Virus record (IMG/VR): IMGVR_UViG_3300030098_001465
Location: 1 to 33,655 of that record
Origin: a virus
Reading direction: 5' to 3' (one strand)
Length of the DNA stretch: 33,655 nt
Shown: positions 4,483 to 9,194 of the stretch, one piece after another
Position numbering within the stretch: position 1 is the stretch's first letter
Layout of the letters: each line of letters starts with the position of its first letter
Translations under genes and position numbers: made by a program
Notes under the pieces: generated by a model
What the model was told of the DNA's origin: nothing
The model's input: the letters and a program-made list of their open reading frames with translations, nothing else
Database searches by the model: none

Positions 4483-5784
4483 CTAGTCATAAACCCAACC
4501 ACCATGCCAAGCCTTTCGCCTTTTTCTTGGGTCAGGAGCTTCAAAATTAAACTTCTTACCAAAGAGAGTAACAGTCTTTTTAGTTTGACCAACGCCTAGC
4601 TTCTGTAAAGACTTAGGTAATTTAGCTTGAGCTTCTTTAGTTAAACCCCAACCTTTACTACCAAATAATTTTTTCTGCTTACCTGCTTCTGAACTAGAAA
4701 CATTTGAACTCTTAACAGTTGATTTAGTAGGTGTAGAAGTAGGTTTATTAGGGAATCTACCTGCTCCACCTCTTCTTGAAGAAGGTTGTGTAGCTTTATC
4801 CGCATCTCTAAGTCTCTGCATAGCATCTGCTAATTTCTTATCAGACAGCTTTTGCATAGAACCTGCATCTGCATCTTTAAATCTTTTCGAAGCTCTATCA
4901 GCTAGTTTTTTCATAGAGCCTCTATCTGCATCTCGGAATCTACTTAAAGCTGATGGAGATTTAGGTGGTGTAGAAGTAGGTTTGTTTGGAAATGGACCTG
5001 CACCACCTCTTCTTGTGGTAACTCTAGCACCAAGTTGAGAACTAGGAAGTTCTCCTCTAGTGCCTTTATCATCAGAAGGAACTCTACCTGCTAATCTACC
5101 TTTACCAACAGGCTCTTGCTTTCTAACATCTCTAGTTACATCAGTAAGTTTCTTAGGTCTTTTGTTTTCTCTAATCCTATCGCCAACCTCATTAATAGCA
5201 AGAACAGTTCCTATACCTGCGGCTGTTAATCCTATTCGTTTCATTGCCTGAATTGTTGGGTCTACCTTACCCCTACCTACAGACCTACCAACATTCTGTT
5301 TAAGTTTAGGACCTTTTAATAAAGTTTTAGAACCTCTCTTTACTTTAGGACCTTTCCCTTTTGAAACTACTGCCTTAGGGTCAATCTTAAATCTAGTTAA
5401 AAGATTGTTTATTTGTTGAGAAGAAACTTTTTTACCTTGATTAACATTGGAAATAAGTTCTCGTTGACTTTGGGTAAGCTGTGCAGGAGGCTTGTCAAGA
5501 TTGCTAGCTTTAGCTTTTCTTTGCTTTACTATATCCTTAACTTTTTGACCTTGCCCTTTTCCTTTAGGTGCTACATCCTTAACTACCTTTTTGGTCTTGC
5601 CTATATTCTTAACAACAGTTGAGGTTAAGTTCTTTGCTTTTGTTCTATTAGTCTTGCTAAGATTCTTAACAATACTCGCTCCTTTTCTAATAGCTTGCCT
5701 AGCTAAAAGCTGAGCCGCAGGTGAGCGTGCTACTTTAAATATCAAACCCCCAATTTTTATCGCTACGATTAATGGTGCCGCCAT
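4483..5784 (-). CDS. very basic repeat-containing protein (433 aa), possible DNA-binding virion protein
   Basis: Function unknown. The chain is extremely rich in Lys and Arg, with long low-complexity stretches. A hydrophobic segment lies at residues 4-17 and another at 183-199 (IGLTAAGIGTVLAINEV). The C-terminal half holds repeats: RRGGAG-x-FPNKPTSTP at about 258-273 and again at 337-352, and a 17-residue unit of type RFRDADRGSMKKLADRA at 282-298 and 301-317, with a partial copy at 324-330. The ribosome site AAGGAG is strong. Lying between terS and terL in the late set, it may be a packaged DNA-binding protein or a packaging accessory factor; that is inference. The end, KAWHGGWVYD, is unlike the rest and may be a docking tail. 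Confidence 0.8.
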   Translation of the reverse strand: MAAPLIVAIKIGGLIFKVARSPAAQLLARQAIRKGASIVKNLSKTNRTKAKNLTSTVVKNIGKTKKVVKDVAPKGKGQGQKVKDIVKQRKAKASNLDKPPAQLTQSQRELISNVNQGKKVSSQQINNLLTRFKIDPKAVVSKGKGPKVKRGSKTLLKGPKLKQNVGRSVGRGKVDPTIQAMKRIGLTAAGIGTVLAINEVGDRIRENKRPKKLTDVTRDVRKQEPVGKGRLAGRVPSDDKGTRGELPSSQLGARVTTRRGGAGPFPNKPTSTPPKSPSALSRFRDADRGSMKKLADRASKRFKDADAGSMQKLSDKKLADAMQRLRDADKATQPSSRRGGAGRFPNKPTSTPTKSTVKSSNVSSSEAGKQKKLFGSKGWGLTKEAQAKLPKSLQKLGVGQTKKTVTLFGKKFNFEAPDPRKRRKAWHGGWVYD

Positions 5785-5785
5785 T

Positions 5786-5935
5786 TTATTTGCTCCTTGT
5801 TTGTTTAGGCTTTTTCTTAACCCTCTTTATCTGTACTGGAGGTGTAGAAGGTTTGTCAATGTTTCTTTTAAAAAGAGAGCCTAACTTCTTAACTCTTAAT
5901 AAAAAATATTTATACAAAGTGTTCAGGTATTTCAT
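5786..5935 (-). CDS. small basic protein (49 aa)
   Basis: A 49-residue frame beginning MKYLNTLYKYFLLRVKKLG and ending in a Lys/Arg/Pro-rich tail. Its stop is one base before the ATG of the basic 433-residue gene, and a GGAGA element lies 11 bases before its own ATG. The first half could be a short membrane-associated helix. Not recognised. It is the first gene after the structured segment that follows terS. Called on packing and the ribosome site, so moderately sure. Confidence 0.6.
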   Translation of the reverse strand: MKYLNTLYKYFLLRVKKLGSLFKRNIDKPSTPPVQIKRVKKKPKQTRSK

Positions 5936-6025
5936 CGTGCTTTTTTTCTCCAAAATTGTTAGTGATAGACCTTCACAGGGAATGGCGGTAACAGTTTTGA
6001 CCCCCCATACTCCGTATGTGCGGTT

Positions 6026-6091
6026 GACTTAGTGAGCTTTTGCCCAGATTACAGCGGAGCTGTAAGTCAGGCAACAAGCTCAGGCTAAGTC
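6026..6091. other. 66-base hairpin between terS and the next late gene
   Basis: Nearly symmetrical stem of four nested paired blocks: GACTTAG with CTAAGTC (7 bp), GAGCTT with AAGCTC (6 bp), GCC with GGC (3 bp) and ACAGC with GCTGT (5 bp) around a 3-base tip. There is no T-run after it in either direction, so it is not an ordinary terminator. The equivalent position in the right arm of the inverted repeat lacks it. Confidence 0.8.
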
Positions 6092-6102
6092 GAAGGGGAA
6101 GG

Positions 6103-6477
6103 TTAACTGAGGTCAATAGACACCTTGACATCAGCCGTATGAAGATGGACTTGCTTGTCAGGACTCTTCAAGCCAACCCTATCAAGAATGTCCTTGCTTG
6201 CCTCTAGCTGTACGTATTCGCTTCTGGCATCACCTGACAAGGAGACTATCTTTTGTACGGCTGACGTAGCATGCATGCTTAAAGAGTTAGCCACAGATTG
6301 CAGGAGGTACTGCTGTACATGCGGTTGCTTCAGAGCCTTACTGGCACTGACTCTACCGCTTTCACCTTCTGCATATCCTGCAATCTGAGACGCTTCTTTA
6401 ATCGTGCATGCGTTTGCTACGAGAGTATCCACTAAAGCCACCTGTTTTTCTGTCAAATTACGAGTGTTCTGGTTCAT
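6103..6477 (-). CDS. terS: terminase small subunit
   Basis: Recognises the phage DNA and recruits the large subunit to start packaging. I chose the ATG at 6477 (124 residues) over the upstream one at 6513 because GGAGG sits 7 bases before it. Residues 8-58 (LTEKQVALVDTLVANACTIK, then QIAGYAEGESGRVSASKALK and QPHVQQYL) are a typical TerS helix-turn-helix, and the C-terminus (KDILDRVGL, then VKVSIDLS) also fits the family. The gene stands in the left arm of the long inverted repeat; the right arm holds a deleted remnant of a second terS. A promoter-like pair (6497-6526) lies just upstream. Base composition is richer in GC than most of the genome. Confidence 0.9.
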   Translation of the reverse strand: MNQNTRNLTEKQVALVDTLVANACTIKEASQIAGYAEGESGRVSASKALKQPHVQQYLLQSVANSLSMHATSAVQKIVSLSGDARSEYVQLEASKDILDRVGLKSPDKQVHLHTADVKVSIDLS

Positions 6478-6496
6478 GCTAGCACCTCCAGAATGG

Positions 6497-6526
6497 ACTT
6501 TACTCTCGTGCAAACTGGCATGTCAA
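6497..6526 (-). promoter_or_regulatory. candidate sigma70-type promoter before terS
   Basis: On the minus strand TTGACA (6526 to 6521) is followed after 18 bases by TAAAGT (6502 to 6497), a full -35 match and 4 of 6 at -10. The start would fall almost on the terS ribosome site, leaving a very short leader, which weakens the call. Confidence 0.35.
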
Positions 6527-6915
6527 GGTGTTAATACAACTAACGCCCATAAAGTTAAGTTCTGAGGGTGTGGAGATGTCATCTTACCATGAAATATGCC
6601 TGACAATCTCTTGCAGACTCCCTTTGCCGAATCAGAGCATCAGGTCTGCTACTGAATTCTTTACTTCCCTACGGTTACAAGATTGTCATGCTTCATGAAA
6701 GATGACGCTCCACATGCCTCTATACCCCACTCTTTTCCTTAAAGTAGCATACCATCTCCAATAGCGTCACGCTGTTGAAGTACAGATGAACTTTCTCCAC
6801 AAATCCACAACAGATGACATCTACCAATAGTTCGGAGGTAATTCGACTGTAATGCCCAAGCGTCACGAACGAAATCTGACTGCGAGCTTGCCTTGTTTTG
6901 TGCAAGACTGGTCAC
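6497..6915 (-). pseudogene. decayed copy of gene X (left arm)
   Basis: Reverse complement of this stretch aligns with the whole intact gene at 7104-7511. The start codon region reads GTG in place of ATG, and the GTG frame stops after about 57 codons at a TAA near 6742. Recognisable protein fragments remain: VRDAW against VRDPW, and QRDAI followed shortly by ML in both. Many indels of 1 to 7 bases break the frame. No other protein is supported here. It lies between the leftward promoter candidate and terS, so it would now be a 5' leader of the terS transcript. Confidence 0.85.
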
Positions 6916-6923
6916 GCTACCGT

Positions 6924-7095
6924 CCTTTCTTTGCAGTTGTTAAATTCCTCCCCACCATAGCAGGAGCAAAACCATGTCAACAAGAATGACGGTTTCCACT
7001 CGCGAGCAAGAGCGAGCGGACCCTCCGCAATTCTTGTGGACTTGGTTTTCTTTTCTCCTGCTATTGGTGCGTCACAATTTAACAGCAAAGAAAGG
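6924..7095. other. central imperfect hairpin or cruciform of the inverted repeat
   Basis: Six complementary blocks in register: 6924-6934 with 7085-7095 (11 bp), 6939-6946 with 7076-7083 (8 bp), 6957-6966 with 7055-7064 (10 bp), 6968-6973 with 7044-7049 (6 bp), 6980-6987 with 7030-7037 (8 bp) and 6999-7003 with 7012-7016 (5 bp tip). The outer block includes the first part of the ribosome site of gene X (AAAGGAGG, 7091-7098). It could be simply the tip of an inverted duplication, or an extruding or RNA-folding control element. Confidence 0.85.
6954..6980 (-). promoter_or_regulatory. candidate leftward (late-operon) promoter
   Basis: On the minus strand TTGACA (6980 to 6975), 15 bases, then TGC-TATGGT (extended -10, 6962 to 6954). 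The right arm has the mirrored form TGGACT (7037-7042), 19 bases, TGC-TATTGG (7059-7067). The -35 match is perfect only on the left. Spacing is short, so support is moderate. Confidence 0.4.
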
Positions 7096-7103
7096 AGGGC
7101 ATC

Positions 7104-7511
7104 ATGCCCAATCTTACAAAAACAATTCAAGCTCTTGCAGATTCCGTTCGAGACCCTTGGGGTCGAATCCGAACTGTAGAGTCAATCTGTTATGGATTTG
7201 CAGAGAAACTTCAGTACTTCAAAGACCAGCGTGACGCTATTGAATCTGATATGCTTAAGGAAGAAGAGCGTTGCATAGAGGCAGGATGTGAAGCGTCCAT
7301 GAAGCATGAAAATCTCTTCACTCGTTGGGAAGTAAAGAAGGATTCAGTAGCTGACCTTGAGGCTCTTCTTACTTCGGCAAAGGAAGTCTACAAGAAAGAG
7401 TCAGGCGAAGAATATATTCATGGTAAGAAGAAATCTCGCACACCCTCTAAGAACTCAGCCTATAATGAGTACCTTAGTAGATGGAACAGACAGCCTCTTA
7501 GCACAGAGTAA
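7104..7511 (+). CDS. gene X: first rightward gene, unknown 135-aa protein
   Basis: Not recognised. The product is hydrophilic and probably helical, with an acidic, Cys-containing centre (KEEERCIEAGCEAS, about residues 52-65) and a basic C-terminal part (HGKKKSRTPSK). A strong AAAGGAGG ribosome site lies 5 bases before the ATG, partly inside the outer stem of the central hairpin. As the first gene of the rightward set it would be made earliest, which fits a host-takeover or regulatory role, but nothing in the protein shows this. A broken copy lies in mirror position in the left arm; that this copy stayed open while the other decayed argues it is expressed and useful. Richer in GC than the genes that follow. 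Confidence 0.8.
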   Translation: MPNLTKTIQALADSVRDPWGRIRTVESICYGFAEKLQYFKDQRDAIESDMLKEEERCIEAGCEASMKHENLFTRWEVKKDSVADLEALLTSAKEVYKKESGEEYIHGKKKSRTPSKNSAYNEYLSRWNRQPLSTE

Positions 7512-7548
7512 AGTCAAGCAATTCTGGAGGGTGCTATCACTCTCCAGA

Positions 7549-7590
7549 ACACTTTTTTCTGCGAGTGGATACACTCGTAGTAAAAAGTGT
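7549..7590. other. 19-pair hairpin in the terS remnant
   Basis: 7549-7567 pairs with 7572-7590 around the loop GATA, with one mismatch and one G-T pair. The outer part is ACACTTTTT against AAAAAGTGT and the inner part CGAGTG against CACTCG. Confidence 0.85.
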
Positions 7591-7612
7591 ACGTCAGCCG
7601 TAAGGCTGATGT
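7591..7612. other. 9-pair hairpin with GTAA loop
   Basis: TCAGCC (7594-7599), loop GTAA, GGCTGA (7604-7609), extended outward by three more pairs to 7591 and 7612, one of them G-T. It lies one base-step after the 19-pair hairpin. Confidence 0.8.
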
Positions 7613-7631
7613 CTGCTATGTCTATAACTTA

Positions 7632-7667
7632 AACCTTCCCCTAGAATAAGAGGGGGATGGGGGGTTA
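7632..7667. other. GC-rich hairpin at the outer end of the right arm
   Basis: AACCTTCCCCT (7632-7642) faces AGGGGGA and GGGGGGTT (7650-7667) with an 8-base loop. The left arm has the same outer bases (CCTTCCCC and GGGGGGT, minus strand) but with the 66-base hairpin between them. A short run of A, not T, follows, so it is not a clear terminator. Confidence 0.6.
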
Positions 7668-7733
7668 AAATAGGACACCGCCTCGAACAGGGGGTGTTAG
7701 AGTATGGCTACAAATAGATTGGAGTAAAATAAG

Positions 7734-7931
7734 ATGAATGAAGAATTGATTCCTAAATCAGAACTCAATGATTTTATAAATGAAAGACGAAAGATAATTG
7801 TAAAGCAAGAGTTAAGAAAACCAATGATTGATTTCTCAACAGACGGAAAGATATGGTGGCTGTTTGAAGGGGTGCTATATCTAGGAGTATTTACATTAGG
7901 GATTTGGTTAGGGTTTGTGCTGTTATCTTAA
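7734..7931 (+). CDS. small membrane protein (65 aa)
   Basis: Short charged N-terminal part, then one or two hydrophobic segments (WWLFEGVLYLGVFTLGIWLG, about residues 41-60) reaching nearly to the C-terminus, so a tail-anchored inner-membrane protein with its N-terminus probably inside the cell. Ribosome site GGAG lies about 9 bases upstream. No family recognised. Its place early in the rightward set suggests an early host-modifying role, as for many small early phage membrane proteins; this is inference. Confidence 0.75.
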   Translation: MNEELIPKSELNDFINERRKIIVKQELRKPMIDFSTDGKIWWLFEGVLYLGVFTLGIWLGFVLLS

Positions 7932-8094
7932 CCAAATAAAGTAAGGAGATAATGAAAGTACTATACATATAAATCTATCTAAGAATAGTTTGTATGGCCT
8001 CATTATCTTCTTACAAAGGAGGTAGCTGAGTAACGAATGGCATACGAAAAGTTAGCCTTTAGTTACCTCCTGCAACAGCACAGAATTGTGTCCG

Positions 8095-8110
8095 AATAAA
8101 TAGGTATTAA
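8095..8110. repeat. 16-base direct repeat in a hairpin loop, copy 1
   Basis: AATAAATAGGTATTAA, inside the loop of the 8087-8120 hairpin; identical to 8132-8147. Confidence 0.9.
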
Positions 8111-8131
8111 AACGGACACAGATTGTAGGTA

Positions 8132-8147
8132 AATAAATAGGTATTAA
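8132..8147. repeat. 16-base direct repeat in a hairpin loop, copy 2
   Basis: Same 16 bases, inside the loop of the next hairpin (8125-8156), whose stem sequence is different from that of the first. Confidence 0.9.
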
Positions 8148-8291
8148 TTAACCTACGAATGAATCTATCAATCATAACACACAAGAATTGCAAGGTACGC
8201 TTCGCTTAAACACCTTGCAATTATTGTGCTTATATGATTTGATAGTTTGCATAAGTGCAATAATAATATCATCTATAAAAAGGAGAGAAAA

Positions 8292-9194
8292 ATGGATGGA
8301 ACTTTTAATTGGTCAGTCTACAATAAGAAACTACTACAAGCTGATAATGTTTGTGATAGTTCAGACTATAACTTTGGATATGAGTGGAAAGAATTATCTG
8401 CTGATGGTGTACCTATACCAACCAGATTGGGCAGGGCATTAGTCAGAAAAGATAATGGCATGACACTTGGTATTCATAAATCTAAATATGTACCAGTAAA
8501 GCATGAGTCTGTTGTAGATAGTGTACTTGAAACAGTAGAGAAACTAGACTGTGGAAAAACATATACAACAATCGAAGTGTTTGAAGAAGGCAGAAAACTA
8601 AGAGGTCAGATATACTTTGATGATGTATCTATAGAACCTCAGATTGGTGATGTCATTGGATACACTATAGACTTTAGAAATTCTTATGATGGAACATGGA
8701 AGTTAGCAATGGCAGGAGAAGGAAAGAGAATCTTCTGTCTTAATACTATGACACACGGCATGAGGTTGAGTGAGAATATAATTAAGCATACTATCTCTGC
8801 TTCTGTTGCTGATACATCTGAGAAATTGAAGATAGCTATGGACACATTTGTTAATAGTGAAGAAACATATAAAAGAATGATTGAATCTAAACAAGATGAG
8901 ACAACAGCTAAAGAATTACTTGAACGTTATTTGTGTCGGATGCCAACCAAATCAGGCAAGCCGAAAACAAATGATGTTCAATTAGAAATTGTTTGTGGTC
9001 AGTTGCAAAAAGAGAGAGCAATGCTAGGCGGCAATCAATGGGCTACTTATAACACAGCTACACATTGGGCCACCCATACACCTAAGGGAGACAATGACAG
9101 GAAGCGAAACGAATCTGTTGTAGGTAGATTAAATGATGCAACTACTAGGCATCTAAAAGTTGAGCAGTTAAAGGATGCGTTAGCATACGCATAA
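8292..9194 (+). CDS. DUF932-type protein (phage/plasmid-like TIGR03299 family)
   Basis: Resembles the DUF932 family, found in many phages and plasmids; no biochemical role is established to my knowledge. I chose the ATG at 8292 (300 residues) because GGAGAG lies just before it; the in-frame ATG at 8247 is inside a hairpin and has no ribosome site. Family-like parts are the middle, YVPVKHESVVDSVLE, the HGMRLSENIIKHT region, and the C-terminal QLQKERAMLGGNQWATYNTA followed by THWATHTP and the NESVVGRL end. It is the largest early gene, after the hairpin array. In other phages such proteins sit among replication genes, which would fit here. Confidence 0.8.
   Translation: MDGTFNWSVYNKKLLQADNVCDSSDYNFGYEWKELSADGVPIPTRLGRALVRKDNGMTLGIHKSKYVPVKHESVVDSVLETVEKLDCGKTYTTIEVFEEGRKLRGQIYFDDVSIEPQIGDVIGYTIDFRNSYDGTWKLAMAGEGKRIFCLNTMTHGMRLSENIIKHTISASVADTSEKLKIAMDTFVNSEETYKRMIESKQDETTAKELLERYLCRMPTKSGKPKTNDVQLEIVCGQLQKERAMLGGNQWATYNTATHWATHTPKGDNDRKRNESVVGRLNDATTRHLKVEQLKDALAYA

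Follow-up and report, generated by a model that had tools for sequence, protein, structure and literature searches.

A probable gene-length RNA hairpin joining gene X to a non-coding mirror beside terS in marine phages

The locus and its inverted arms

The window, i.e., the whole stretch of DNA analyzed, is the virus record IMGVR_UViG_3300030098_001465, with a length of 33,655 bases. Its best match among phage records was Pelagibacter phage EXVC031P Hodr (henceforth Hodr), with amino-acid identities of 63.8% for terL and 52.1% for terS. Leftward late genes run from terS (6474-6103) and rightward early genes from the 135-aa gene X (7104-7511), the two being divergent neighbors located on the minus and the plus strand, respectively. 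The G+C content at 6000-7600 was 0.44–0.49 in 400-base windows, versus 0.32–0.41 in the flanks. The gene terS was recognized by Pfam PF03592 (E 3.2e-5, 25 bits versus a cut-off of 26.1) and by phrog_2538 (E 1.1e-11). The features of the locus are collected in Table 1.

Table 1. Features of the terS–X junction in the window.
Feature	Coordinates	Strand	Remarks
Gene X	7104-7511	+	135 aa, first early gene; ORF with GGAGGG ahead of the ATG; family alignment
X arm of the rod	7012-7553		5′ leader, complete ORF and terminator of X; from 92 nt before the ATG to 41 nt past the stop (GU-aware strict alignment)
Non-coding arm, X′	6460-7000	−	X-like, frame-broken, complementary to the X arm; extends to the terS start
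Rod apex	7001-7011		Short loop in the window phage and L003; 22–156 nt in relatives
X terminator-like hairpin	7522-7549	+	Intrinsic type, followed by CACTTTTTTC
terS, small terminase subunit	6103-6474	−	Shine-Dalgarno and ATG sit in the rod base
Sigma70-like promoter	6497-6526	−	TTGACA, 18, TAAAGT; inside the 3′ end of X′, ahead of terS; shared by L003
Block in the terS 5′ coding region	6413-6433		Pairs with 7564-7584
Partner of 6413-6433	7564-7584		Past the X terminator
Small hairpin ACGTCAGCC..GGCTGATGT	7590-7613		L003 homology stops here; may be where a terS-strand RNA has its 5′ end

The dN/dS of gene X was 0.10–0.31 in 15 of the 16 pairs compared, and 0.76 between the window and a second contig with the same arms (IMGVR_UViG_3300030104_002037; L003/L004, henceforth L003). 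To judge from these ratios, X is a real, fast-evolving protein gene under purifying selection; together with the family alignment, they exclude that X is a chance antisense ORF. The protein is predicted to be a two-helix hairpin with a low-confidence C-terminal part (AlphaFold model with a mean pLDDT of 82.6). Searches with X brought up no noteworthy family in Pfam or PADLOC and, in the fold search, nothing in the PDB at E 0.001. The PHROG matches were weak, with function unassigned or, in one case, tail fibre (best E 0.0052), and the viral fold matches, with a best E of 8.8e-4, were phage proteins that are themselves uncharacterised. The X genes of the window and of another locus, L050, matched none of 50,697 phage records, and that of Hodr matched only itself. 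Concerning the X-like sequence X′, no continuous frame was found in the 13 loci examined, where the X-like fragments were short, stop-containing or frame-changing. By its frames, X′ is non-coding.

The initial annotation had described the surroundings of the junction as two long inverted arms, diverged copies of a module made of X and terS, each arm keeping one gene while the other decayed. The observation of inverted arms was confirmed. The reverse complement of 5984-7000 aligned to 7016-7682 with a score of 358, while 200 dinucleotide shuffles gave no more than 31 and the alignment of the arms in direct orientation only 27. The strong part of the match is 6463-6987/7030-7553, with 417 of 482 aligned columns identical and many small indels; for this rod core alone, 500 shuffles reached at most 30. 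It was also correct that the left copy of X is frame-broken, with stops and several frames, while the right arm carries the intact gene, that the arms have diverged too much for a recent fold-back, and that they are placed at the divergent early/late junction.

The module itself was not recovered, as the arms repeat gene X only. No decayed terS lies in the right arm, just the 21-nt block 7564-7584 that pairs with 6413-6433 (score 32, reached by 0 of 500 shuffles), the sole block outside the core clearly above chance. The pairing of 6094-6139 with 7601-7642 is weak (score 27, reached by 1 of 500 shuffles), and in L003 the strict rod enters terS by 74 nt. An outer match of 19 nt joins 5995-6013 to 7652-7670; TTTTGACCCCCCAT-like sequence is seen on both these outer sides, and L003 keeps the left one only. 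A chimeric join at the center, for which the annotation had allowed, does not fit the finding of the same layout in L003 and in further contigs; assembly chimera was excluded, as Hodr and other contigs show this layout too.

Co-variation of the arms and the strand that pairs

The alignment of L003 to the window along 6113-7613 shows 87% identity and 13 gap columns. Between the two arms of one genome, there are about 85 gap columns, which appear as 170 in a self-alignment because each arm is passed twice. So few gaps between genomes, compared to about 85 between arms, indicate that the bulges are old and have been kept. Considering the 479 pairs of the window, 436 keep their partner in L003. 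Changes between both genomes affected the left side in 75 pairs, the right side in 64, and both sides in 39 versus 10.0 expected; 33 of these 39 went from one Watson-Crick pair to another.

Double changes were also counted in 49 comparisons, which share loci, among 43 non-redundant loci, with 12 slid controls for each comparison. They concern two families of X genes, family 1, to which the window and L003 belong, and family C; homology between both was not demonstrable (hhalign probability 0.9%). Plain double changes were above all 12 slid controls in 20 of 28 comparisons of family 1 (sum 1019, slid mean 666) and in 9 of 21 of family C (sum 209, slid mean 136), and kept double changes were above the controls in 24 of 28 (589 versus 96) and 14 of 21 (102 versus 25), respectively. 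With both families pooled, this makes 29 of 49 comparisons by plain double changes and 38 of 49 by kept ones, the kept measure being biased to the true register because the pairs are taken from one of the two sequences, and the plain measure being fairer and weaker. Kept double changes were not above the slid controls in four comparisons of family 1 and seven of family C: six of these eleven had no double change, one had two and none kept, and four had some, in numbers not exceeding the best control. An excess of double changes over slid controls is what is expected of a selected RNA secondary structure, and the arms do not evolve independently as those of a decayed inverted duplication would.

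The similarity of the arms is specific to each locus. For 19 loci, a selection from 65, the non-coding arm was compared with its own X and with the 18 other X genes, and it matched its own best in 19 of 19. The arm of L085, for instance, scored 397 against its own X, the remaining 18 giving no more than 34; the margin was small in L116, L120, L124 and L125. Between L131 and L133, 53 of the 248 paired sites had changed in the X arm versus 5 in the leader arm, so that mismatch is tolerated for a time. The X arm of this pair looks like a recombinant X with an unmatched partner.

These results bear on the possibility that an old inverted duplication persists with each arm decaying the gene kept by the other, the pairing having no present function. 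The likeness of the arms and an X′ full of stops and indels would be accounted for. However, independent decay predicts an X′ equally like related X genes, which is contradicted by the own-X comparison, and the co-evolution of the broken copy with X, the conservation of the bulges and the strand-specific G-U tolerance described below also oppose it, as does a right arm without a terS copy apart from the 21-nt block. It is therefore very improbable, and the reciprocal decay of the initial annotation cannot be maintained. As to the inverted duplication, it may still hold as the origin of the arms, not as the explanation of their present state.

Concerning the strand, the mismatches read on that of terS comprised 931 G-U versus 171 A-C in 33 loci picked from 65 and not all independent, under a scoring that treats both wobble classes alike. 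G-U exceeded A-C in each of the 33, and was also ahead on the terS strand in the 64 testable loci (64/64) of the set found by searching with X. One-sided changes pooled from 16 comparisons gave 83 G-U to 34 in the X arm and 190 to 81 in the leader arm, although some of the 16 had no such bias (L090/L095, with 26 to 25 in the leader and 12 to 11 in the X arm; L109/L111, with 0 to 2 in the X arm). Transcription-linked mutation could imitate a G-U bias on the leader arm and should oppose it on the X arm. As the bias is present also on the X arm, transcription-linked mutation of X′ alone would not yield it, and its occurrence on both arms argues for selected pairing in a terS-strand RNA. Hodr had no G-U bias (6 G-U versus 8 A-C), and that of L038 was slight (11 to 6).

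The predicted folding was examined on both strands. The window rod gave −643.7 kcal/mol on the terS strand (−336.5, sd 9.7, for 20 shuffles) and −553.7 on the X strand (−307.5, sd 13.1, for 20 shuffles). A consensus of six relatives gave −412.5 on the terS strand, with a covariation term of −6.0 and 380 pairs, 60 of them with kept double changes; for the X strand it was −314.6, with a covariation term of +1.4 and 353 pairs, 52 with kept double changes. All of 63 upstream regions, rod-less ones included, folded below their one shuffle, and the terS strand was the lower in 57; in Hodr and L038 it was the opposite strand. In a separate fold of the Hodr rod, both strands were practically equal in energy (terS strand −272.8, opposite strand −272.6), and the opposite strand had the stronger z (−26.1 versus −16.2). 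Taken together, the pairing is read as residing in the RNA of the terS strand.

Two explanations placed at the DNA level can be weighed against this evidence. Homogenisation of the arms by template switching or gene conversion, without selection on RNA, would yield both double changes and own-X similarity, and the nearly equal G-U and A-C numbers of Hodr agree with it. Nevertheless, copying should erase the bulges, which is at odds with the pairs that keep their partner in L003, and A-C should equal G-U on each strand, contrary to the bias found in both arms; this explanation is unlikely. A DNA structure for packaging or replication (cruciform, pac or origin) would suit a position adjoining terS and the repeated 13-mers at 6256, 6128 and 7590-7613, but a DNA hairpin gives no strand-specific G-U tolerance and the consensus folding differs by strand, so it is highly improbable. 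It seems reasonable to interpret that the arms very probably face each other in a single gene-length RNA hairpin (about 1.1 kb), which forms in RNA of the terS strand and is kept by selection on pairing.

Occurrence and extent of the mirrored unit

Of 82 terS loci (80 relatives, the window and Hodr), 51 were tested; the other 31 were omitted because of short upstream sequence, because no suitable divergent ORF was picked, or because they were copies of another locus. The rod was clear in 41 of the 51, marginal in two (L007 and L022) and absent in eight. Among the 41 rod loci, nine carry an X of family 1 and thirty an X of family C, while the genes of L038 and Hodr were unlinked to both (blastp, 1e-3); the ten loci without a clear rod carry genes outside families 1 and C. 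A search with X itself gave 63 loci, overlapping the terS set. With L003 and the window added, 64 of 65 were testable and all were above their ten shuffles, L119 barely (161 versus 158). Hodr is the one cultured isolate found with the rod. Upstream of terS in L007, L041 and L048, strong predicted folds were seen without X of the two families or a clear X-type rod.

The extent of the pairing was studied in 32 family-1 loci, window and L003 included, with script-chosen terS starts; X is cut by the contig end in three. In 27 of the 29 loci with a complete X, the X arm ran from 57–115 nt before the ATG to 18–82 nt past the stop, and in 19 of those 27 it started 67–71 nt before the ATG. Terminator-like hairpins, read by eye, lie at the same place after X in aligned relatives. 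In the X family of the window, the mirrored unit thus corresponds to about the X mRNA, the extent of the latter being predicted. The exceptions to full-length pairing were L119, where X is present with hardly any rod, and L087. The latter, a relative of L085, has a shorter leader (468 nt from terS to X), and its strict pairing is restricted to −112 to +57 of X. Family-C loci pair strictly over a limited stretch too, reaching from 60–153 nt before X to 66–160 nt inside X. The apex is tight in the window and L003 and has 22–156 unpaired nt in other lineages. A permissive pairing profile ran into chance matches and was not used for the extents. The spread of helix lengths was below the permuted mean in 30 of 33 loci, a result that aligners favor, and the reading of evenly spaced bulges as RNase III avoidance is at most suggestive.

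The base of the rod varies in position among family-1 loci, from 74 nt inside terS to 335 nt upstream. This bears on whether the rod serves the translational control of terS, with the Shine-Dalgarno and start codon in its base. Such a layout holds in the window and L003, but the remaining 25 full-length family-1 rods, out of 27, have their base 27–335 nt upstream of the terS start, and the weak promoter-like site of Table 1 is downstream of most of X′. As the function of the rod, this control is quite unlikely, and a rod that always sequesters the terS start was excluded by the variable position of the base. In the window and L003, terS expression may respond to the rod, a response that would not be general. 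In these two, at 6463-6497 of the window, the X′ copy of the X terminator hairpin, inspected by eye, now forms the Shine-Dalgarno and start codon of terS.

Proposed role and relation to known systems

A role can be proposed for a hairpin of this kind. If RNA of the terS strand is started beyond X, its passage through X is necessarily antisense. Next in this RNA, X′ would follow and fold back on the antisense-X segment, acting as a built-in, broken mimic of the X mRNA that ties the antisense up in cis. Late transcription would then neither silence X nor form perfect duplexes of X mRNA and antisense for RNase III, and the bulges would stop the rod itself from being a perfect RNase III substrate. 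A function in keeping antisense off the X mRNA agrees with a mirrored unit that approximates this mRNA instead of the whole leader, and folding in cis agrees with the tight apex of the window and L003. This antisense-neutralising mechanism, with its assumptions on the existence of the RNA, its starting point and the effect of its folding, is put forward tentatively. The combination of selected pairing with a neutralising role is probably the best explanation overall. Quite possibly, there is a hitherto undescribed class of gene-length structured RNA in a diverse marine phage lineage, in which the non-coding arm mirrors about the whole X mRNA and co-evolves with it, so that the antisense folds on itself and carries its own neutraliser.

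Regarding known hairpin and rod RNAs, eukaryotic hairpin RNAs arise by inverted duplication of target genes and co-evolve with the gene; here, by contrast, the live gene itself is one arm, and bacteria are not known to have a Dicer pathway. Hepatitis delta-like rods of about 1 kb, with an ORF on one side, are circular RNA replicons. Obelisks (PMC11922315) resemble the present case in forming a rod of about 1 kb, one side of which carries an ORF, and differ in being circular RNA replicons, whereas the rod described here belongs to phage DNA, being found next to terS in phage contigs and in the Hodr genome record. The defining trait of obelisk- and delta-like elements, a circular RNA without DNA counterpart, does not apply to it. 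A captured viroid- or obelisk-like element would explain a rod of about 1.1 kb with an ORF on one arm and a helical protein X; however, the element sits in phage DNA beside terS in many contigs and no Rfam ribozyme was found in 5000-9000, which makes such a capture exceedingly improbable. The same Rfam search of 5000-9000 gave no match at the gathering score, and only two sub-threshold matches to mir-208 (best E 0.039).

The nearest known idea, going by the excerpted description, is the excludon, where the long leader of one gene is antisense to its divergent neighbor (PMC7154746). The likeness consists of two divergent genes, a terS-strand RNA that would cover X as antisense and a plausible early/late exclusion. 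An excludon-type antisense overlap of X by the terS transcript would agree with the strand-specific G-U bias. The difference is that the rod RNA would carry a co-evolving self-complement over about the whole neighboring mRNA, and none appears in the excerpt of the excludon description. Similarly, control by cis-antisense RNA with RNase III (PMC7373196) has in common the sense/antisense overlap, and its excerpted account describes no built-in mimic of the sense RNA. In the open-licence literature on pelagiphage, on SAR11 phage transcriptomes and on phage antisense RNA or long hairpins, no such element appeared in titles or the starts of abstracts. If true, the proposed hairpin would be a rare case of mRNA-length pairing under selection in phage, in which a coding arm stays linked to a non-coding one despite the fast evolution of the protein. 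The case is relevant to the way compact genomes handle antisense overlap and RNase III, is testable in a cultured pelagiphage, and implies that an apparent 'decayed duplication' beside a gene can be a functional RNA.

Concerning promoters, the site at 6497-6526 has 10 of 12 consensus matches and is weak, the scan of the region having found 2 sites versus 4.3 expected in shuffles. Its place inside X′ suggests that terS could be transcribed without the rod. The scan found no promoter-like site for the terS strand beyond X, and no clear sigma70 consensus promoter, either for X or for the terS strand beyond X, was recognized by eye or by scan. Repeats of TACGTCAGCCGTA / ACATCAGCC occur at 6256-6268 and 6128-6139, inside terS, and at 7590-7613, just past the rod; they could be TerS (pac) or regulator sites. 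In several relatives, G-runs (AAGGGGGGG) are found at the ribosome-binding position of terS, and the L096 group has, ahead of terS, TTGACA repeats and a long GGGGGGAGAGAGGG block.
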